Positions 11,782 through 39,054 of a stretch of DNA of 64,000 nt are shown piece by piece (positions within the stretch are counted from its first letter, which is position 1; each line of letters opens with the position of its first letter). The translations under genes were made by a program, and so were the position numbers. The notes under the pieces are model-generated. The model worked only from the letters and a program-made list of their open reading frames with translations, was not told the DNA's origin and did not search any database. The stretch spans positions 1,130,784 to 1,194,783 of the forward strand of contig NZ_CP023018.1 in NCBI RefSeq assembly GCF_022406875.1, read 5' to 3'. The DNA is from Ectothiorhodosinus mongolicus. GTDB lineage: Bacteria > Pseudomonadota > Gammaproteobacteria > Ectothiorhodospirales > Ectothiorhodospiraceae.

Positions 11782-11827
11782 GCCGTAAGACTTTTCCCTC
11801 CCCAAGCCCGTTGGCACTGATAATTTC

Positions 11828-12796
11828 ATGCAATTGGATCAAATACGTGAATTGATCGCCGCTGATATGACCGCGGTAGACCAGTGCATTCGTGAGCGCT
11901 TGCAGTCGCCCGTGGTGCTGATCAATCAGCTTGGACACTACATTATTAATAGTGGTGGTAAGCGTCTGCGGCCTTTGTTGGTATTGCTTTCTGCGGGCGC
12001 CTGTTCCTACTCGGGTCGTGATCATATTTCTATGGCGGCAGTCATCGAGTTCATTCACACCGCAACGCTACTGCATGACGATGTGGTCGATGACTCCCAA
12101 ATGCGTCGCGGTCGTCAAACCGCCAATGCTTTATTTGGCAATGAAGCCAGCGTATTGGTGGGTGATTTTCTCTACTCGCGTTCCTTTGAAATGATGGTCG
12201 AGCTAGGTGATATGCGCATCATGCAAATCGTCTCCAATACCACCAGCACCGTGGCTGAGGGTGAAGTGATGCAGTTGCTCAATTGCCATGATGCCGACAC
12301 CACAGAAGAGCGCTACATGCATGTGATTCAGTCCAAAACCGCGAAATTATTTGAAGCCGCCGGCCGCATGGGGCCGATTCTGGCAGGTCAGTCAGAGGTC
12401 ATTGAACAGGGTTTGGCAGCCTACGGCATGCACCTCGGCACGGCGTTTCAGCTCATTGATGATGTTCTGGACTACAGCGGTCAACAGGGAGAGATGGGCA
12501 AAAACATGGGCGATGACTTAGCCGAGGGTAAACCCACTTTGCCGTTAATTCATGCCATTCGCACGGGCGCTGCTGAGAATGCCACCTTGATTCGTGAGGC
12601 GATTGAACAGGGCGGTCGCGAGTACGCGGATAGAGTTTTGGCTGCTTTAGCCGAGTCTCAGTCCATCGATTACGCCCGAGCCATGGCACAGCGGGAAATT
12701 GATCATGCCATCGATAACCTGAAGGTATTGCCAGAAAGCCAGTATCGCGATGCATTGATTGAACTGGCCCGCTTATCGATTGATCGGGCCTCATAA
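11828..12796 (+). CDS. ispB: Octaprenyl (polyprenyl) diphosphate synthase
   Basis: Trans-prenyltransferase that builds the long side chain of ubiquinone/menaquinone from FPP and IPP. 322 residues. The two aspartate-rich Mg-binding motifs are visible: LLHDDVVDDSQMRRGR (first, near residue 84) and FQLIDDVLDYSG (second, near 211), plus GGKRLRPLLVLLS. Divergent from rplU, a very common arrangement. The chain length cannot be fixed from motifs alone; the octaprenyl label follows the family context. Confidence 0.95.
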   Translation: MQLDQIRELIAADMTAVDQCIRERLQSPVVLINQLGHYIINSGGKRLRPLLVLLSAGACSYSGRDHISMAAVIEFIHTATLLHDDVVDDSQMRRGRQTANALFGNEASVLVGDFLYSRSFEMMVELGDMRIMQIVSNTTSTVAEGEVMQLLNCHDADTTEERYMHVIQSKTAKLFEAAGRMGPILAGQSEVIEQGLAAYGMHLGTAFQLIDDVLDYSGQQGEMGKNMGDDLAEGKPTLPLIHAIRTGAAENATLIREAIEQGGREYADRVLAALAESQSIDYARAMAQREIDHAIDNLKVLPESQYRDALIELARLSIDRAS

Positions 12797-29605: not shown

Positions 29606-29870
29606 TACGGACCTCACTCTCAAAGTGCCACGGCCTGATCGCCGTCGGCAGCACAACAGCTCTGATTCTCAAGAGCGGTTATTTTTGACCGGGACATGCC
29701 AGTGTTATCACCAGCGGGTCTGCGAGAATAAAATTAATTGCGTTCTAACGCCAGAGCCAATAGCAGTTTTATGCTTATATGCACCAGCATGGTGCATCAA
29801 GTGGATGACATTACGGAGTTGGTGCGGCTGATATCATGTCTTGCATGTACAACCCACAGGACCAATTTTG
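29606..29870. other. Divergent intergenic region between gltB and the patatin-like gene
   Basis: About 265 bases without a gene. The NtrC-type palindrome (29779-29797) is the only clear element. On the minus strand TTGGCT, a 17-base gap and TTAATT form a weak sigma70-like pair; TGGCAC (29625-29630) resembles half a sigma54 promoter, but no GC lies at the needed -12 spacing. No terminator or small RNA was seen. Confidence 0.5.
29779..29797. promoter_or_regulatory. NtrC-type enhancer palindrome upstream of gltB
   Basis: ATGCACCAGCATGGTGCAT is an 8+3+8 perfect inverted repeat. It matches the NtrC (NR-I) consensus TGCACC-N5-GGTGCA exactly and closely resembles the sites of the E. coli glnA enhancer. 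Its distance to the gltB start (about 174 bases) is normal for NtrC sites. Only one site was found, and no clean -24/-12 promoter accompanies it. It could also serve the divergent patatin-like gene. Confidence 0.7.
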
Positions 29871-30755
29871 ATGCCAAAGCAGGTGCAGCGCAATAAACCC
29901 AAATCAGTCTCCCTCGTGTTGGGATCCGGCGGCGCGCGTGGCTTGGCTCATATCGGCGTTATCCAAGAGCTAGAGGCTCGGGGTTTTAAGGTGCAAGCGA
30001 TCGCTGGCAGCTCGATGGGTGCCTTGGTAGGTGGTATTTACGCGCTGGGTAAGCTCCAAATCTATGCGGATTGGGTTAGTGGGTTGGAGCAATCCGATGT
30101 GCTTTGGCTCATCGATTGGAGCTTTAGTGGCGGTGGCATCATCCGCGGTCAAAAGGTCATTAATAAGTTACGTGAGCTGGTCGGCGAGGAGGACATCGAG
30201 CGCCTACCCATTGCATTCACAGCCGTAGCCGTCGACATCGAGCGGGGAAAAGAGATTTGGTTCCATGATGGCCCCTTATTTGATGCCATCCGAGCATCCA
30301 TTGCCATCCCTGGTTTGTTTACCCCACATCACTATCGCGGATTAACGCTGGTAGATGGTGGGCTTCTAAACCCTGTCCCTGTAGCGCCCACCCTGAGCGC
30401 GCTAACCGATCTCACCATCGTCGTGGATGTGAATGGACCCGCCGAAGATTTGACGCCGGAAGTTTCGCCGGGCAACGATCACGGCCGTTTTTTGGAGCGC
30501 TTAAGATCTTATGCCGAAGCCTTGGGGTTGGATATCAACGGAGATAATGAGGGGCTGGCTTTATCGGATATTTTGATGCGCTCTTTCGACACGATGCAGG
30601 CAGCGCTGACGCGCCAGCATTTGGCTGTTTTTCATCCTGATGTTGTGATCCGCATTCCCAAGAATGCCTGCATGGTCCACGAGTTCTATCAGGCCAAACC
30701 GATTATTCAACTGGGTCGCGAGCGGGCTAAAGCGGCTCTGGATGAGTGGCTTTAG
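29871..30755 (+). CDS. Patatin-like phospholipase, RssA type
   Basis: 294 residues from ATG 29871 (MPKQVQRN); a TTG at 29841 would add ten codons and is less likely. Patatin features: glycine-rich oxyanion loop LVLGSGGARGLAHIGVI, nucleophile elbow IAGSSMGALVGG (Ser), and the dyad Asp in LVDGGLLNPVPV. So a Ser-Asp lipid acyl hydrolase is expected, cytosolic, with no signal peptide. It resembles the NTE/RssA group, whose substrates are unclear. The stop overlaps the stop of the convergent Fe-S flavoprotein gene. Confidence 0.9.
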   Translation: MPKQVQRNKPKSVSLVLGSGGARGLAHIGVIQELEARGFKVQAIAGSSMGALVGGIYALGKLQIYADWVSGLEQSDVLWLIDWSFSGGGIIRGQKVINKLRELVGEEDIERLPIAFTAVAVDIERGKEIWFHDGPLFDAIRASIAIPGLFTPHHYRGLTLVDGGLLNPVPVAPTLSALTDLTIVVDVNGPAEDLTPEVSPGNDHGRFLERLRSYAEALGLDINGDNEGLALSDILMRSFDTMQAALTRQHLAVFHPDVVIRIPKNACMVHEFYQAKPIIQLGRERAKAALDEWL

Positions 30756-31966
30756 CGTTCCCCTTCCTCAGGTTTGAGCCCGTAGGACTCAACCAAACGC
30801 CAGACATGATCAGGAATCATGTGACGCATGCGCCTAGGTTTGACACGTCGCAAATGCAAAACGGTCTCCACTGCTTTCATTTCCAGTCGCGCCCGAGCAA
30901 ATTCAAGACCTCGGGGTCCGATGCGGGGCATGAGATAGGCGGCAATGGGTCGAGCCCAGTCGGGCATAGCTCGCAGCGGTAGACCGCCAGCGGCGCGCTC
31001 AGTATTTTTCAAAAAGCCTTTCACTGGCCCGGCTCTATTGCCCGCGCTGCTGGGCGTTTTCAGGCTGATCTCCTCGCCCAGTAAGTCCAGCATTTCCTGT
31101 CCGCGCGCATTGCGCACCAGCAACCATTGTTCGCCTCGGCCCGCCATGTAACCCACGGTGATGTCAGCCAAAACATTGGTGTAATCAACACAGGTCTGGC
31201 ACGTCAGCGGAAAGAAATCTCGCGGTAACTGGGACAGCGGTAGTTTCAGAAAGGGAATGGTTTTGATTTCACCATTCTGAAAACGCATCTCCACATGGTA
31301 GTCCGCGCGAAACTCCAAATAAGTACAGGTCTCAGGCTGCTCGCAAAGCAAAGCGAGAAACTCATGAAAACGTTCGGTGGTCGTGTTGTCGGAGCACGGT
31401 GTGCCAATGACATACAGTTGCTCAATACCCATCTCGTCCTGCAAAGCCCGCAAAGCATAGACTTGGCAGGGGATGCCAATAATGGCTAGGCGCTTGAGTC
31501 CCACTGCTATGGCAGGCTCAACCAAACTGAGCAGAGGGGCATAACCCATGCGCATGCCGCGACAGGCTGCTAGATCGTCGACATTAGTCACCAAGGTAGG
31601 TACTGGTCTCCAGCGATCATTCGGATCAGCAGTCATGGTAAGCACGGCATCGACTTTTCCAGATACAAGAAGCTTTTCGGCGATTTTGGTGGTGATGCCA
31701 GTCCACTGGGCGCCCGCCGAGGGTTGCTTCAGGCCGGCCTGAAACATGCTTAGATAGGGACCAAAAAACGCCTCGTCACCGCTTTTTGTATCGCGTGCAC
31801 GACCATGCACTTGTTGCTCTAGTTTCGGATAATTTGGCCGGATGAACTGACAGGCGCGTCCGCAGCGACTGGCGTCAGGGGTCCTGCTGATGCCGCAATC
31901 TGTGCATAGATCACGATGCGGCGGGTTCTCCGCGTTGGGTGATGGTAGCGGCCGGATGGGGATCAT
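30752..31966 (-). CDS. FrhB-family Fe-S flavoprotein related to BciB / 7-hydroxymethyl chlorophyll a reductase
   Basis: 404 residues of the 'F420 hydrogenase beta subunit' superfamily. It resembles BciB (divinyl chlorophyllide 8-vinyl reductase) and plant HCAR along most of its length: QVHGRARDTKSGDEAFFG, GAQWTGITTKIAEKLL, DPNDRWRPVPTL, LAIIGIPCQVYALRAL, LYVIGTPCSDN, TCQTCVDYTNVLADITVGYM, VRNARGQEML. Cluster-type Cys are C21, C24, C35, C39 and the later GIPC, GTPC and CQTC. BciB proteins have CxxCxxC at the start; here the third position is Ser, with C35 perhaps replacing it. The start is 3 bases from the ccmI stop, so it is probably part of the ccmEFGHI transcript. Substrate unproven; F420 use is not implied. 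Confidence 0.82.
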   Translation of the reverse strand: MIPIRPLPSPNAENPPHRDLCTDCGISRTPDASRCGRACQFIRPNYPKLEQQVHGRARDTKSGDEAFFGPYLSMFQAGLKQPSAGAQWTGITTKIAEKLLVSGKVDAVLTMTADPNDRWRPVPTLVTNVDDLAACRGMRMGYAPLLSLVEPAIAVGLKRLAIIGIPCQVYALRALQDEMGIEQLYVIGTPCSDNTTTERFHEFLALLCEQPETCTYLEFRADYHVEMRFQNGEIKTIPFLKLPLSQLPRDFFPLTCQTCVDYTNVLADITVGYMAGRGEQWLLVRNARGQEMLDLLGEEISLKTPSSAGNRAGPVKGFLKNTERAAGGLPLRAMPDWARPIAAYLMPRIGPRGLEFARARLEMKAVETVLHLRRVKPRRMRHMIPDHVWRLVESYGLKPEEGER

Positions 31967-31969
31967 GCC

Positions 31970-33244
31970 CTAGGGCAGCACGCGATTAATACGAATCTGA
32001 ACACGCGCATCAGGTAGCGTTGGGTTCACAGGCTCAGCGACGCCTTCAAGGTCGCCACTTTGGACTTCTGCCATGCCACTTTTTGAGACCCGTGCAACCA
32101 CTTCGACCTGATCAAACTGCGCCATTGAGGCGCCGCCCATCATCTCATGCGAGGCGTCTAGGACCAGTTCGAGGGGAAACTGAGCGCTTACTCGTTGCAC
32201 CGCAATCGGCATCCGCGGCCCTCCAACAGGGCGAGCAAAAACCATCACCATCTCCTCGCCACTGAGTTCAGCGCCCAGAGCTGGATCCAGATCAACCTGC
32301 ACGCGGATGGAGGTAGTTTCTGAGCTTTCCAAGCGTGTTTGCGGCGCTGGAACTGGGGCTGGCGCGGGACTTGCCGAAGACTGACGCAGTGCGTCGCGCA
32401 CATCATCCAGCGCACTGCGTACCACTTGCTCACTCTCAGGATCGCCTTGAACTAGCGGCACTAAGCGTTCCAGTAATTCCAAAGAAACCGTGAAATTATT
32501 GGTTTGGAAGTGACTGATGGCCTTAAGCCATAGGGCATTGGGATGGTTGGGCTCCAATTCCAGCGCTGTATCTAACAAGGCATTGGCTTGGGGAGTAAAG
32601 GCGCCCATGGAAGCCAGCATGAGATGCTCCGCGTAGCTCACATTGAGATCAGCCTCGTCACCTACAATGCTGTGGGCTCGGCCAAATGCTCTTGCTGCAT
32701 CTTCATATTGCTCCATGAATCCATAGGTGCGTCCCAACATTATCCAGCCTTCGGCATCCTCAGGAGAGTCACCCAGTCGGGTTTCCATTTGTTGCGCCAT
32801 AGCAGTTAGGTCGGCTGCATCGGGCATAGCCATGGTTGTTTCCGGCGCACTAGAGATATGCCCGGGCCGGAGGTCCGGATCATGTACCTGCAAATAGATA
32901 TAGATGGCGAAGGCTGGCACCACCACCGCACTCACAGCCAGCACGGTAAGCCCTTGGCGCGGCTTGGGGGCTGATTTGAGAGATTCCGGCTCGGGTTCGA
33001 GCTCGACATCCGTTAACAGGTTGTCTTCGAGCTCGGCGCGGGCCGAGTCATATTGTTCCTGATTCAGGTACCCAGAAGCCAGTTCCTGATCCAGTTCCGC
33101 CAGCCGTTGGCGGTAGATGGTGATGTTCAGTTCTCGCTGTTTGACTTCGTTAGCTGTCTTGGCACTGCGCAGAAAGGGCCAAAGTAAAATCACCGCTGCC
33201 AGGAGGACTAACGCCCCGGCAGCCAACCAAAAACTGACATTCAT
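31970..33244 (-). CDS. ccmI: Cytochrome c biogenesis protein CcmI
   Basis: Holds apocytochrome c for haem ligation. 424 residues: an N-terminal double-membrane CcmI-1 part (FWLAAGALVLLAAVILLWPF at 5-24; a second helix near 100) with a cytoplasmic loop carrying the conserved ELNITIYRQRLAELDQELASG; a periplasmic TPR region (GWIMLGRTYGFMEQYEDAARAFGRA, then LEPNHPNALWLKAISHFQTN); and a beta-rich C-terminus. It overlaps ccmH by ATGA. Confidence 0.92.
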   Translation of the reverse strand: MNVSFWLAAGALVLLAAVILLWPFLRSAKTANEVKQRELNITIYRQRLAELDQELASGYLNQEQYDSARAELEDNLLTDVELEPEPESLKSAPKPRQGLTVLAVSAVVVPAFAIYIYLQVHDPDLRPGHISSAPETTMAMPDAADLTAMAQQMETRLGDSPEDAEGWIMLGRTYGFMEQYEDAARAFGRAHSIVGDEADLNVSYAEHLMLASMGAFTPQANALLDTALELEPNHPNALWLKAISHFQTNNFTVSLELLERLVPLVQGDPESEQVVRSALDDVRDALRQSSASPAPAPVPAPQTRLESSETTSIRVQVDLDPALGAELSGEEMVMVFARPVGGPRMPIAVQRVSAQFPLELVLDASHEMMGGASMAQFDQVEVVARVSKSGMAEVQSGDLEGVAEPVNPTLPDARVQIRINRVLP

Positions 33245-33720
33245 ACATCTTTTCCTTCGCTAAGCAGACGTCGGGCTTTTTCCCGAGCCTGTTCATCTGT
33301 GGGCTGCAATTGTCTTGCTGTTTGGCTACCTCGGGCTGTAGCCCAAAGCACTATCAAACCAAACACCAGCAGTACAAAGGGCCCGATCCAGAGTAAATAA
33401 GTGGCGGGGGAAAAGGGCGGGCGATACAAGACGAATTCGCCGTAGCGTGCCACCATAAAATCAATGATTTGAGGATTGCTCGACCCCGCATTGAGTTGAT
33501 CCCTTAACTCTCGCCGCAAATCCCTAGCCAATCCAGCATCTGAATCAGCCAAAGATTGGTTTTGACAGACGGTACAACGCAATTCATGCAGGAGCTCGCG
33601 GTAGCGCTGTTCTAAGCTGGGGTCCTCAAAGTATGTCACCCCTGCTTGTTGACTGGAGGCGGGCGCCGTTGCCAAGGCAAATGCTAGGGCAACCGCCAGG
33701 GCAGCAATCAGCCTAGGCAT
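33241..33720 (-). CDS. ccmH: Cytochrome c biogenesis protein CcmH (CcmL-type)
   Basis: Periplasmic membrane-anchored thiol protein that handles apocytochrome. 159 residues: signal peptide (1-23), the family motif ELRCTVCQNQSLADSDAGLARDLR with the redox pair C-x2-C, and a C-terminal transmembrane helix (YLLWIGPFVLLVFGLIVLWA). Short form, not the E. coli-like fusion with the TPR domain, which is separate here as CcmI. Its start overlaps the ccmG stop by one base. Confidence 0.95.
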   Translation of the reverse strand: MPRLIAALAVALAFALATAPASSQQAGVTYFEDPSLEQRYRELLHELRCTVCQNQSLADSDAGLARDLRRELRDQLNAGSSNPQIIDFMVARYGEFVLYRPPFSPATYLLWIGPFVLLVFGLIVLWATARGSQTARQLQPTDEQAREKARRLLSEGKDV

Positions 33721-34256
33721 CAGGTCTCGCTCCGTAGTCGCTGAATGAGGGGCAGGATATCTCGTTCAACCTTGGCCCAAGTTATCGGACCCACATGTTT
33801 GTAGCGAATTACACCCTGGCGATCGATGACGAAAGTTTCGGGCGTACCATAAACACCCCACTCGATGCCGACCCGGCCCTCATGGTCAAAGGCATTCCAA
33901 ATATAGGGATTGCCAAAGCGCCGCAGATACTCAAGTCCATCAGCCCGCTCATCTTTATAGTTCAATCCATAAATGGGAATGCCATAGTCACGCGCCATTC
34001 TCACCAAATAGCGATGTTCCTGACGACAGGATACGCACCATGACGCCCAAATATTGAACACCACGACTTCGCCCTCAAAATCAGCCGTGCCCACCTCGCG
34101 CTCCGCTGCTTGAAGTTCAGGCAGACTAAATTGCGGTATCGGATGATTGACCAGCGGCGAGGGCAGAAGGCTGGGGTCTAAAAGCAGACCCTTGGCCAAG
34201 AAACCGCCCAACACCGCCAGCAATACCAGCGGCGATAAAAACAGCAGCTTTTTCAT
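33720..34256 (-). CDS. ccmG: Thiol:disulfide interchange protein CcmG/DsbE
   Basis: Membrane-anchored periplasmic thioredoxin that reduces apocytochrome c. 178 residues: N-terminal anchor (LLFLSPLVLLAVLGGFLAKG), NIWASWCVSCRQEHRYL (active site CVSC), an acidic loop YGLNYKDERADGLEYL, and the cis-Pro VYGTPETFVIDRQG. The usual motif is WCxxC, as here. It overlaps ccmF by ATGA. Confidence 0.95.
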   Translation of the reverse strand: MKKLLFLSPLVLLAVLGGFLAKGLLLDPSLLPSPLVNHPIPQFSLPELQAAEREVGTADFEGEVVVFNIWASWCVSCRQEHRYLVRMARDYGIPIYGLNYKDERADGLEYLRRFGNPYIWNAFDHEGRVGIEWGVYGTPETFVIDRQGVIRYKHVGPITWAKVERDILPLIQRLRSET

Positions 34257-36286
34257 CCGGAGCTACTCCGCGTGGCGACACCAGAGGGATTGGCATTGTC
34301 ATCCGGCTTGGATTCAGCGATTCGATTTTCTTTCGCAAGCGCTTCTGAGCGACGCCGTGAGAATACCCGATAGCGGCGGTCAGCAGCGGCAATGAATCCC
34401 CCCAGAACGATGAATGTTGCGCCAATCCATAGCCAGGACTGGAAGGGGTTGTGATACAGCCGCAGTGACCAAGTATTGCCCGACATGGGCTCACCCAGCG
34501 CCACGAAGATATCGCGTAGTAAGTTCGACTGATAAGACGCTTGCGCCATTGGCATTGTCTGCACACGGTAGACCCGGCGCTGCGGGAACAAGTCAGTCAC
34601 GTGGCTCCCATCGCGAGTAACGCCAACGCGTGCTTCGATCGCATCCCAGTTCGGGCCGGCGACAGAGTAAACCTCTTGCAGTTCAAAAGTGTAGCCACCC
34701 AAGGTGTGACTCTGTCCCATACCCAGACGCACATCGGTCTCGGACTCAAAAGCCATAAGCATGGTAATGCCCATGACCAAGATGGCAAACCCGAAATGGG
34801 CCACGGACATACCCCAGTAACCGGCTGGCATCTTACGCAGGGTTTTCATTGGAGTGCCTTGTTTACGAGCGCGCTGGTAAAGATCGCGGCCAATGCTAAA
34901 TACGATCCAAAAAGCCATAGCCATGCCCACAGTCACCATGAAGGTCGTGCTGCCCACCATCACCAGTGGGAAAATCACGCCCACCACCACCGCGGCTAGC
35001 AGGGTATGCCACAGCCGCTGCGAAAGCTCCCAAGCAGAAGATCGTTTCCAGCGCAACAGCGGACCCAAACCCACCATGAAAACCAGTGGCACCATGAGCG
35101 GAGCAAACACAGAGTTAAAGTACGGGGGGCCGACGGAGATCTTACCCATGTTAAGCGCGTCTAAGAACAACGGATACAGCGTCCCTAGAAGCACGGCCGC
35201 CAGAGCTACCACCATGATGACGTTGTTGACCAACAGGCCAGACTCGCGCGAGACCGGATGGAACTCAGTCTGGCTGCGCACCTTAGGCGCGCGCCATGCA
35301 TACAACAGGAATGAGCTTCCGGCGATAGCAAGCAGTAGCATCAGAATATAGACGCCGCGTGTGGGATCGGTGGCGAAGGCATGCACCGATACCAGCACCC
35401 CGGAGCGCACCAGAAAGGTTCCCAACAGACTGAGACAGAACGCTGAGATAGCCAGCAACACCGTCCAACTGCGAAACACGCCGCGTTTTTCGGTAGCCGC
35501 CAGGGAGTGGATTAGGGCAGTGGCTGCCAACCATGGCATCAGTGAGGCATTTTCCACGGGATCCCAGAACCACCAGCCGCCCCAGCCCAGCGTGTAGTAA
35601 GCCCACCAGCTGCCTAGAGCAATGCCAGCGCCCAAAAAGGCCCAAGCGCTGGTTGCCCAAGGGCGCGTCCAGCGTGCCCAAGTGGCATCCAGTTTACCGC
35701 CAATAAGAGCGGCTACAGCAATGGCGAACGGCACAGCCAAACCTACATAACCCATGTAAAGCATAGGCGGATGGATCACCAGCCCAGGGTCCTGTAGCAG
35801 CGGATTCAGATCGCGGCCATCGGCAGGAATCGGGAACAGGGCTTCGAAGGGGTTAGAGGTAAACAGCGTGAAGGACAGAATGCCTACACTCACCAAACCC
35901 ATGACGGCGATGGTGCGTGCTGCCATGTCCGTCGGCAGACCTTTGCTGAATAGGGATACGGCAAGCGACCAGCCGCCCAACATGAGGGCCCAAAGTACCA
36001 AGGATCCCTCATGACCACCCCAGACACCCGAGATGCGATACATCAAAGGAAGCGCGGTATTCGAGTGGTTTGCGACGTACGCTACCGAGAAGTCATGCGT
36101 GATAAAGGCGTAGGTGAGGGCCAAGTACGCAATCAGAAGAAAGATGAATTGCCCCGCGACCGCCGTGTGTGCTGTGCGCATCCACGATAAAGTGCCGCGA
36201 TGCGCACCAATAAGAGGGATGGTGCCCTGGACGGCGGCCATTAAAAGGGCCAGCACCAGGGCCATTTGGCCGATTTCTGGGATCAT
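34253..36286 (-). CDS. ccmF: Haem lyase subunit CcmF
   Basis: Large membrane protein that takes haem from CcmE and, with CcmH/I, attaches it to apocytochrome c. 677 residues, about 15 membrane helices. The haem-handling tryptophan-rich signature is WWAYYTLGWGGWWFWDPVEN. Other conserved parts: GHEGSLVLWALMLGGWS and FLVRSGVLVSVHAFATDP. Starts 2 bases after ccmE. Confidence 0.97.
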   Translation of the reverse strand: MIPEIGQMALVLALLMAAVQGTIPLIGAHRGTLSWMRTAHTAVAGQFIFLLIAYLALTYAFITHDFSVAYVANHSNTALPLMYRISGVWGGHEGSLVLWALMLGGWSLAVSLFSKGLPTDMAARTIAVMGLVSVGILSFTLFTSNPFEALFPIPADGRDLNPLLQDPGLVIHPPMLYMGYVGLAVPFAIAVAALIGGKLDATWARWTRPWATSAWAFLGAGIALGSWWAYYTLGWGGWWFWDPVENASLMPWLAATALIHSLAATEKRGVFRSWTVLLAISAFCLSLLGTFLVRSGVLVSVHAFATDPTRGVYILMLLLAIAGSSFLLYAWRAPKVRSQTEFHPVSRESGLLVNNVIMVVALAAVLLGTLYPLFLDALNMGKISVGPPYFNSVFAPLMVPLVFMVGLGPLLRWKRSSAWELSQRLWHTLLAAVVVGVIFPLVMVGSTTFMVTVGMAMAFWIVFSIGRDLYQRARKQGTPMKTLRKMPAGYWGMSVAHFGFAILVMGITMLMAFESETDVRLGMGQSHTLGGYTFELQEVYSVAGPNWDAIEARVGVTRDGSHVTDLFPQRRVYRVQTMPMAQASYQSNLLRDIFVALGEPMSGNTWSLRLYHNPFQSWLWIGATFIVLGGFIAAADRRYRVFSRRRSEALAKENRIAESKPDDNANPSGVATRSSSG

Positions 36287-36288
36287 AA

Positions 36289-36759
36289 TCAGTAGGTCGC
36301 TGTGGGTGAGCCGCCCGGATGTTCTTCAAAGCCAGCCGCTTTCAGCGCGGCCGCAACTTCCGGAGCCATATAATTTTCATCATGTCGCGCCAAAACCCGC
36401 TCGGCGCGGAAGATGCCATCACCGCCCATACGTCCATGGGTGACAACACCTTGTCCTTCGCGAAATAAATCAGGCAGCAAGCCGACGAACTGAACCGGAA
36501 TGCTGTGGCGCGTGTCGGTGACGCTAAACGAGACCATCAGGCCTTCGTCAGCATGCTTGATGGAATTAGCTTCCACCAGTCCCCCCAAGCGAATAATTCG
36601 ATCGGGGTTGGGCAGCTGCTCGCCTTCCGCAATTTGTGATGGTCCGTAGAAGTACATCATGTTGTCGCGGAAGGCGCTGAGCGCTAGCGCTGAGGCAGTC
36701 GAGACAGCGACGACAATCAATACTACCCCGGCCAGTCGTTTCTTTTGTCGAGGGGTCAT
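36289..36759 (-). CDS. ccmE: Haem chaperone CcmE
   Basis: Periplasmic OB-fold protein, anchored by one helix, that carries haem covalently on a His. 156 residues from ATG 36759 (MTPRQKKRLAGVVLIV), chosen because GGAG lies six bases upstream; a TTG at 36771 would add four codons. The haem-binding HDENY motif (LARHDENYMAPEV) is present. It is the first gene of the leftward ccmEFGHI operon and faces ccmA across about 215 bases. Confidence 0.96.
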   Translation of the reverse strand: MTPRQKKRLAGVVLIVVAVSTASALALSAFRDNMMYFYGPSQIAEGEQLPNPDRIIRLGGLVEANSIKHADEGLMVSFSVTDTRHSIPVQFVGLLPDLFREGQGVVTHGRMGGDGIFRAERVLARHDENYMAPEVAAALKAAGFEEHPGGSPTATY

Positions 36760-36907
36760 TACACACTCCAACTACATCAGGTTTATCCGCTTATTTTGGA
36801 CCGCAGGCCACTTTTTTCGCAATTACTTCGCCAATATGACCGTGCGCATTGCCGGAGGTTCGCCTGCTTTCGTGATCAAGCGCAAGAGTCATGATAGCTC
36901 GTGCGGG

Positions 36908-36936
36908 TTCGCATGGCAGCAGCATCGTTGTAGTAT
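36908..36936 (+). promoter_or_regulatory. Candidate promoter for ccmABCD
   Basis: TTCGCA (36908-36913), 17 bases, TAGTAT (36931-36936): each box four of six. The mRNA would begin about 32 bases before ccmA. No comparable pair was convincing for the leftward ccmE operon in the same 215-base gap. Confidence 0.4.
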
Positions 36937-36974
36937 CCTGCGCCAGATTATCGCCACCCATCTATTGGAGTGAC

Positions 36975-37619
36975 ATGTCGCCGTCTTTTGCCGATCAGAC
37001 GCTCGAGGTCAGAGATCTTGTTTTGGAGCGCGGGGAGCGTGAGCTGTTTCACGGACTCGCTTTCAAGCTGGATTCAGGAGAGCTACTACAGCTAGCGGGC
37101 CGCAATGGCTCAGGTAAAACCAGCCTGTTGCGAGTTCTTTGTGGATTGTCCCGACCGTTGCAAGGAGAAGTGCTGTGGAATGGTCAGTCGTTATCTGCTC
37201 AAGAGGACGGTCCGGCAGCACACCTTGCCTATCTGGCGCATCTGAATGCTTCTAAAGAAGAGCTGAACGCCGAGGAAAATATTCGCCTCTCATCAGCGCT
37301 TCAGGGACGTAACATAGGTCGCGAAGAAGCCTGGGAAATGCTCGGCCAATTGGATCTGCGTGGTTTTGAGGATTTGCCGGTCAAATTCCTAAGCCAAGGT
37401 CAGAAACGACGCGTTGCCCTGGCTAAGTTATTGTTGTCTGCGCGACCGTTGTGGATTATGGACGAGCCCTTTGCTGCTCTCGATGTGCAAGTCATCCAGG
37501 TACTTAAAGCCTGTATGGAAGATCAGCTGAAGCGCGGTGGCATGATCGTTTTGACAACGCATCAAGCCGTTCCCATCGAGGGTCCACAACAGACGGTCAC
37601 CCTAGGAGATGCGCGATGA
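36975..37619 (+). CDS. ccmA: Haem exporter ATP-binding protein CcmA
   Basis: ABC ATPase of the CcmABCD complex that releases holo-CcmE. 214 residues from ATG 36975, with TTGGAG just upstream; the frame extends back to 36891 without support. Walker A GRNGSGKTSLLRVL, signature FLSQGQKRRVALAKL, Walker B LWIMDEPFAALD, and the switch His in TTHQA. It overlaps ccmB by ATGA. Confidence 0.96.
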   Translation: MSPSFADQTLEVRDLVLERGERELFHGLAFKLDSGELLQLAGRNGSGKTSLLRVLCGLSRPLQGEVLWNGQSLSAQEDGPAAHLAYLAHLNASKEELNAEENIRLSSALQGRNIGREEAWEMLGQLDLRGFEDLPVKFLSQGQKRRVALAKLLLSARPLWIMDEPFAALDVQVIQVLKACMEDQLKRGGMIVLTTHQAVPIEGPQQTVTLGDAR

Positions 37620-38293
37620 GTGCTCTCTTAAGTGTACTTTGGGTTTTATTGCGCCGCGATCTGACCTTGGCAATGCGCCGACGCCAGGATGCTTTGGTGG
37701 TACTGGGGTTTTTTATCGTCGTCGTGTCTTTGTTCCCATTGGGCGTTGGCCCAGATCCACAGTTATTGCGCAGTATGGCGCCCGGAGTCATTTGGGTGGC
37801 GGCCTTGTTGGCTACCATGCTGTCCTTGGAACGCTTATTCTCGGATGATTTTCGTGATGGCAGTTTGGAGCAATTGCTACTAGTACCGCAGCCACTCAGC
37901 GTTCTGGTGATGGTGAAGATTTTGGCGCACTGGCTGGTGATTGGCCTGCCGCTGGTGCTGGTCTCACCCCTGCTGGGCATGCAGCTGAACCTTTCTGGCG
38001 AAGAAATACTCGTACTCATGGCTGCATTGTTGCTTGGGACGCCCATCCTGAGTCTGGTGGGTGCGATTGGTGCGGCATTGACTCTGGGTATACGCGGTGG
38101 CGGGGTGCTGATTTCTTTGTTGATTTTGCCACTTTACGTACCACCGCTGGTGCTAGGCGCTGGTGCTATTGATGCCGTTATGTTTGGCTCAAGCCCAATG
38201 GCGCATCTTTCAATGCTGGCAGCGCTCGCAATTCTGGCATTATTGTTGGCACCCTTCGCAATCGCTGCTGCGTTGCGAATTATGCTGGATTAA
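37616..38293 (+). CDS. ccmB: Haem exporter permease CcmB
   Basis: Six-helix membrane partner of CcmA. 225 residues; RRDLTLAMRRRQDAL at the N-terminus, ERLFSDDFRDGSLEQLLL, and LVSPLLGMQLNLS are typical. Eleven bases separate it from ccmC. Confidence 0.96.
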   Translation: MSALLSVLWVLLRRDLTLAMRRRQDALVVLGFFIVVVSLFPLGVGPDPQLLRSMAPGVIWVAALLATMLSLERLFSDDFRDGSLEQLLLVPQPLSVLVMVKILAHWLVIGLPLVLVSPLLGMQLNLSGEEILVLMAALLLGTPILSLVGAIGAALTLGIRGGGVLISLLILPLYVPPLVLGAGAIDAVMFGSSPMAHLSMLAALAILALLLAPFAIAAALRIMLD

Positions 38294-38304
38294 GGAGAGC
38301 AGAC

Positions 38305-39054
38305 GTGGCTGAACGCGGTATTCAGTGGTTTAAGTTTTCATCGCCACCGAATTTTTATTATTTGACCGGCGTGCTCGCACCCTGGTTTATGGGCCTGGCA
38401 GCGGTTTTGGCACTGCTGGGGCTTTATTGGGGCTTTGTGGTTGCGCCTATCGATTATCAGCAGGGCGAGAGCTATCGCATCATGTTCATTCATGTGCCTG
38501 CTGCCTGGATGGCTATGTTCATCTACATATTAATGGCGGCCTACGGCGCTATTGGCTTGGTTTGGCGCATTAAGACCGCCGAAGTCATGGCTAAAGCCAT
38601 GGCGCCTACGGGTGCCATTTTTTGTTTTCTTGCGCTTTGGACTGGGGCCTTGTGGGGCAAACCGACCTGGGGAACCTACTGGGTTTGGGATGCGCGTATC
38701 ACCTCTAACCTGATCCTATTGTTTTTGTATATGGGTTACATAGCGCTGCACGCTGCGATCGAAGATCGTCAGCGCGCAGCAAACGCCAGTGCTGTGTTGG
38801 CTTTGGCGGGTGTGGTTAATGTGCCGATCATCTATTTCTCAGTGATTTGGTGGAATACCCTGCATCAAGCGCCTTCCATCACCGTGACTGACTCACCGTC
38901 TATGGAAACGTCAATGTTCACGGCCTTGATGCTGATGACCTTTGCCTGTTGGATGTACTCAATCGCCGTGATTCTCAAGCGGGCACGCCTTGAACTGCTG
39001 GATCGGGAGCGCAAGGCCAGTTGGGTGACAGAACGGCTGGGAGATAAGTCATGA
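38305..39054 (+). CDS. ccmC: Haem handling protein CcmC
   Basis: Membrane protein that attaches haem to CcmE. 249 residues with six helices. The tryptophan-rich loop WGKPTWGTYWVWDARITS and flanking His residues (MFIHVPAAWMA; IAVILKRAR near the end) are typical. The start is read as GTG 38305, after AGGAG. Its stop overlaps the ccmD start. Confidence 0.96.
   Translation: MAERGIQWFKFSSPPNFYYLTGVLAPWFMGLAAVLALLGLYWGFVVAPIDYQQGESYRIMFIHVPAAWMAMFIYILMAAYGAIGLVWRIKTAEVMAKAMAPTGAIFCFLALWTGALWGKPTWGTYWVWDARITSNLILLFLYMGYIALHAAIEDRQRAANASAVLALAGVVNVPIIYFSVIWWNTLHQAPSITVTDSPSMETSMFTALMLMTFACWMYSIAVILKRARLELLDRERKASWVTERLGDKS

Follow-up and report, generated by a model that had tools for sequence, protein, structure and literature searches.

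A purple-bacterial BciB beside ccmI in Ectothiorhodosinus mongolicus, probably an 8-vinyl reductase of bacteriochlorophyll synthesis

BciB is a ferredoxin-dependent 8-vinyl reductase, with slr1923 of Synechocystis and Ctha_1208 of Chloroherpeton thalassium as examples. It is an FAD protein that depends on ferredoxin and contains two [4Fe-4S] clusters, and some purple bacteria carry it (PMC7242693; PMC13297055). The other 8-vinyl reductase, BciA, is NADPH-dependent and unrelated to BciB (PMC13297055; PMC4214422), being an NmrA/SDR protein. Moreover, COR, encoded by bchXYZ, is also capable of 8-vinyl reduction (PMC4214422, PMC7242693), so that a separate enzyme for this step is not indispensable. 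In plants, 7-hydroxymethyl chlorophyll a reductase (HCAR), which acts in the conversion of chlorophyll b to a, shows that the BciB family can change its substrate (PMC4214422). The F420-dependent reductases FrhB, FpoF and Fsr have core FrhB domains in common with the protein described here.

The bciB gene considered in this work is located in a 64,000-nucleotide stretch of the E. mongolicus genome (the window), immediately downstream of ccmI (Table 1). We assign a probability of about 0.87 to the explanation that it is an ordinary late-pathway BciB of a purple phototroph, likely a C8-vinyl reductase, which has moved beside ccmI with no functional link to the maturation of cytochrome c. We infer its substrate, electron donor, cluster ligation and co-transcription.

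The bciB locus and the family of its product

The gene is an open reading frame on the minus strand with an ATG start, and three bases (GGC) separate this ATG from the stop codon of ccmI (31970-31972). Given the 3-bp gap, the two genes may be co-transcribed. A promoter scan of the ccmI-bciB gap gave nothing above chance. The frame and its spacing from ccmI were as reported in an earlier note on this DNA, which did not give the strand. That note had also found no other pigment gene in the window, and a BLAST search of the window with a set of photosynthesis-cluster proteins is in agreement, showing no other bch or puf gene. The matches in this search were a transketolase (against dxs) and a prenyl diphosphate synthase-like ORF (window positions 11789-12793, 31% identity to crtE), which probably belongs to general isoprenoid metabolism.

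Table 1. Features of the bciB region (positions in the window)
Feature	Position	Strand	Remarks
bciB, purple-bacterial type	30752..31966	-	404 aa; probable ferredoxin-dependent 8-vinyl (proto)chlorophyllide reductase
First cysteine set, C21-x2-C24-(S27)-x10-C35-x3-C39	31850..31906	-	predicted ligands of the first [4Fe-4S] cluster, one probably moved from 27 to 35
Second cysteine set, codons C167, C191, C256, C259	31190..31468	-	predicted second [4Fe-4S] cluster, next to FAD
ccmI, immediate upstream neighbour	31970..33244	-	named from sequence and operon position; orthologues in seven Ectothiorhodospira loci
ccmH, ccmG, ccmF, ccmE	33241..36771	-	named from sequence and operon position
ccmA, ccmB, ccmC, divergent	36891..39054	+	context of bciB
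Patatin/RssA-like gene	29841..30755	+	converges on bciB; 3' ends overlap by 4 bases

The bciB product contains the Pfam domains FrhB_FdhB_N (E = 3e-21) and FrhB_FdhB_C (E = 5e-26), and its domain plan (N-terminal cysteine region, FrhB_N and FrhB_C) is that of the known type of BciB. A phmmer search of the Protein Data Bank finds Arabidopsis HCAR (entry 5dqr) as the top match, with an E value of 1.3e-72, and further FrhB proteins at 1e-15 or weaker. The AlphaFold2 model, built from 32 relatives, has a pLDDT of 87 and a pTM of 0.88. With this model, Foldseek matches HCAR over the whole length (TM 0.86-0.88), and the F420 enzymes come next, at 0.58 or less by query length. Models of F420 enzymes were also the only ones in NCBIfam to match, but the scores (about 58-71 bits) are far under the cut-offs (269-475 bits), and the protein therefore receives no curated name. 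As judged from its sequence and from the model, the bciB product is a full-length protein of the BciB/HCAR family rather than a generic FrhB.

Cysteine sets and the proposed reaction

The purple type and the known type of BciB have equal numbers of candidate cluster cysteines, eight in each. These positions were compared in an alignment of 54 sequences (52 of them purple), in a 38-sequence alignment (A1), and in 14 more purple sequences. The residues of the second set, C167, C191, C256 and C259, are invariant in every sequence compared, including HCAR and a BciB of Thiodictyon (see below). The Cys, Asp and Asn of the C-S-D-N motif around D193 are likewise retained in all the sequences, and HCAR shares the motif as C-x-D-N. 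D193 is probably the equivalent of D197 in Synechocystis BciB, which is located near the Mg in an AF3 model that places ferredoxin on residues 9-40 (PMC13297055).

The difference between the types is in the first set. HCAR and the Thiodictyon BciB have CxxCGLC and also the final Cys; their residue at position 35 is Val or Met. In comparison, C21, C24, C35 and C39 are present in all 66 purple sequences (52 plus 14), with Ser or Thr at position 27 in place of the third Cys of CxxCxxC, and C35 is an extra invariant residue. The bciB product therefore departs from the canonical CxxCxxC...C pattern, with its four cysteines retained and one of them relocated. As four cysteines are kept in each type, one cluster ligand has probably moved, from position 27 to position 35, in the purple branch. 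In the AlphaFold2 model, residues 34-37 form a short helix, with pLDDT near 90.

The residues at these positions are those given in the earlier note (C21, C24, Ser 27, C35 and C39), which took them as a hint of a subfamily distinct from true BciB. The set is indeed distinct, in all the purple sequences. On the other hand, the exclusion of BciA (see below) indicates that it marks the common purple form of BciB and not a different kind of enzyme. The pattern may already be described in subscription papers. A search of the accessible literature found no enzyme assay or mutant for the purple BciB subfamily.

In the proposed mechanism, the product would act in the synthesis of bacteriochlorophyll on 3,8-divinyl chlorophyllide a (and protochlorophyllide), the vinyl group of which at C8 would be reduced to ethyl. 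By homology, reduced ferredoxin would dock at the N-terminal region, electrons would then run via the two [4Fe-4S] clusters to FAD, and a hydride would pass from there to the C8 vinyl group. C35 would substitute for the usual third Cys of CxxCxxC in the first cluster. Purple BciB may be distinct in a further way, although we regard this tentatively, as somewhat short of an even chance: the ligand shift from 27 to 35 could retune the ferredoxin-facing cluster, or its docking face, to suit a proteobacterial electron donor or exposure to oxygen. Such retuning would fit the report that Synechocystis BciB did not function in Rhodobacter sphaeroides, for which the authors offered lack of a suitable reductant as one explanation (PMC4214422). 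The shift of the probable ligand extends through the subfamily and falls in the region modelled to face ferredoxin (PMC13297055), and it is a simple target for mutagenesis.

A CxxCGLC-type BciB is found on plasmid pTs485 of Candidatus Thiodictyon syntrophicum, beside bchI-bchD-bchO (L073 3041-4285; NZ_CP020372.1 288040-289284). Together with the common type, this canonical type makes two types of BciB within the purple bacteria. The Thiodictyon protein has 42% identity to HCAR but only 37% to the bciB product, and in view of this low value it was perhaps acquired from another phylum. The gene is the one full-length relative found in a search of a plasmid collection, and a scan of viral contigs with the mixed alignment gave no canonical BciB relatives. 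In a tree of 68 rows, HCAR and the Thiodictyon sequence are the only ones outside the purple clade, each on a very long branch; Thiodictyon (37% identity) is the single canonical-type bacterial BciB in this comparison.

Phototrophy of the host and the ccm neighbourhood

The host genome is a single, nearly complete contig of 2.0 Mb. Its genus mates have 2.6-3.8 Mb, and the difference suggests marked genome reduction in the host lineage. The genome has pufL and pufM, as well as bchI, D, O, C, X, Y and Z and crt genes around C1:1.67-1.69 Mb. By gene content, the organism is therefore a bacteriochlorophyll maker, and it is a phototroph of the Ectothiorhodospira group. Among 58 relatives, BciB is present in 11, pufLM in exactly the same 11, and neither in the other 47. 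This set of 11 takes in a member of another genus of the family (G013). The Fisher p value for the co-occurrence, 4e-12, ignores kinship and is descriptive only.

The earlier note had offered two alternatives for the position of bciB. The first was relocation of the gene in an organism that makes bacteriochlorophyll. The search of the rest of the genome agrees with this, as pufLM, bchIDO and bchCXYZ are found about 0.5 Mb from bciB and homologues elsewhere are located inside photosynthesis gene clusters. The second alternative was a related reductase that acts on another tetrapyrrole alongside the assembly of c-type cytochromes. In its explicit form, this would be a paralogous FrhB-type reductase that took on a role in haem or cytochrome c maturation, such as keeping a haem-handling or thiol step reduced, and that is co-expressed with the ccm genes.

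The neighbourhood survey covered 47 named loci and the loci from the genus, with 41 loci from outside Ectothiorhodospira. Adjacency to ccmI is restricted to Ectothiorhodospira, where it is seen in 8 of the 10 genomes including the host, and these eight genomes, with the 3-bp gap in the host, are what speaks for a role in cytochrome c maturation. However, the gap is about 28-217 bp in the seven other Ectothiorhodospira loci, and none of the 41 outside loci is by ccmI or otherwise linked to ccm. In at least 18 of these 41, the flanking sequence retrieved contains bch, crt, ppsR or PucC-type genes, with close neighbours such as bchF/ppsR (L049, L053, L055 and L058), bchP/tspO (L052 and L060), bchI (L045, L054 and L056) and crtE (L042). 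Two congeners, G001 and G008 (L064 and L063), have BciB away from ccm. Moreover, the gene tracks pufLM exactly and is missing from those family members that are not phototrophic, and some of these, at least, would be expected to make c-type cytochromes. Conservation next to ccmI, which the earlier note had proposed to follow across genomes, thus ends at the genus. The note had named a lack of linkage to ccm in other genomes as a refutation, and by this measure the result counts against the haem or cytochrome reading, which we consider very improbable. A role of bciB in haem or cytochrome c metabolism is not supported, and the ccm neighbourhood is a lineage-specific rearrangement. This removes a false lead, the adjacency being a local event rather than a new haem-linked pathway.

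For the gene as a BciB that moved beside ccmI, the most parsimonious account is a single relocation in the common ancestor of the eight ccm-linked genomes, with later shrinkage of the gap in the small host genome. The BciBs of these eight form one clade in a quick tree (99% SH-aLRT). A single move to just downstream of ccmI would have occurred in the ancestor of most Ectothiorhodospira species, and the gap would later have shrunk to 3 bp; co-transcription may follow from this, not a functional tie to ccm.

In G001, BciB adjoins priA and argS, and the G008 contig has an ORF of equal length (739 aa) at the place of priA. The BciBs of these two genomes group with Magnetospira-type and other sequences in the quick tree, apart from the ccm-linked eight. 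Their position and their placement in the tree suggest that the gene was exchanged or replaced within the genus.

BciB and BciA in phototrophic Pseudomonadota

In a phylum-wide sample of Pseudomonadota, 30 further genomes have reaction-centre genes, and these phototrophs were searched for both reductases. The BciA query was a sequence taken as that of the Arabidopsis protein. Its matches align for most of their length at about 50% identity, one of them with the stretch VISCIASRSG...HFILLSAICVQKP, and they indicate that the query worked as a probe. Weak BciA-like matches (about 30% identity; G411, G516, G751 and G802) were regarded as generic NmrA proteins and not counted, since G725 has such a match in addition to a strong BciA.

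Strong BciA (47-56% identity, E < 1e-70) is present in 10 of the 30 genomes and purple BciB (60-73% identity) in 14, and the two are never found together (0/30; p = 3e-4). In addition, none of 37 BciB genomes has a strong BciA, with a single match of 31% identity among them. Families f107, f213 and f223 each include BciA genomes as well as BciB genomes, and this alternation shows that the pattern is not one deep split. Since each enzyme replaces the other across the purple bacteria, purple BciB is predicted to share the function of BciA and probably catalyzes the same reaction, which argues against a different substrate. As to what makes the 8-ethyl group in BciA-less purple bacteria, one conserved type of BciB swaps cleanly with BciA here, even within families.

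These data also bear on whether the protein is a BciB-family enzyme with another bacteriochlorophyll-related reaction, for example an HCAR-like reduction of a 7-hydroxymethyl or other side chain. The identity to HCAR, only about 34-38%, and the departure of the first cysteine set from CxxCxxC count against the 8-vinyl assignment. In favour of another reaction, no solved structure is closer than HCAR, the purple subfamily carries a cysteine set of its own, and plant members of the family have changed their substrate (PMC4214422). On the other hand, the exclusion of BciA, with switches inside families, fits an 8-vinyl reductase and would be unexpected from another reaction. To our knowledge, chlorophyll b-type pigments are not known in purple bacteria, nor are they expected there. 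We regard another reaction as unlikely.

The remaining alternative is a redundant or decaying copy, the job of which is covered by COR. Reduction of the 8-vinyl group by COR is known (PMC4214422, PMC7242693), and six of the 30 phototrophs lack both BciA and BciB. However, the bciB frame is intact in all the genomes searched, its product, compared between alpha-, beta- and gammaproteobacteria, keeps 59-76% identity and over 100 invariant alignment columns, and the gene is retained in the host, whose genome of 2.0 Mb is the smallest in the genus. We give hardly any weight to decay.

The six phototrophs with neither BciA nor BciB are G452, G512, G558, G566, G581 and G757. Four of them belong to genus g361, of which another member, G684, has BciB. 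COR or another enzyme may carry out 8-vinyl reduction in these six. Full-length BciA is absent from G452, and an 87-aa open frame in this genome matches the C-terminal end of BciA over 64 aa (L092; G452:C1:4586633-4586821), possibly as a remnant gene or a divergent form.
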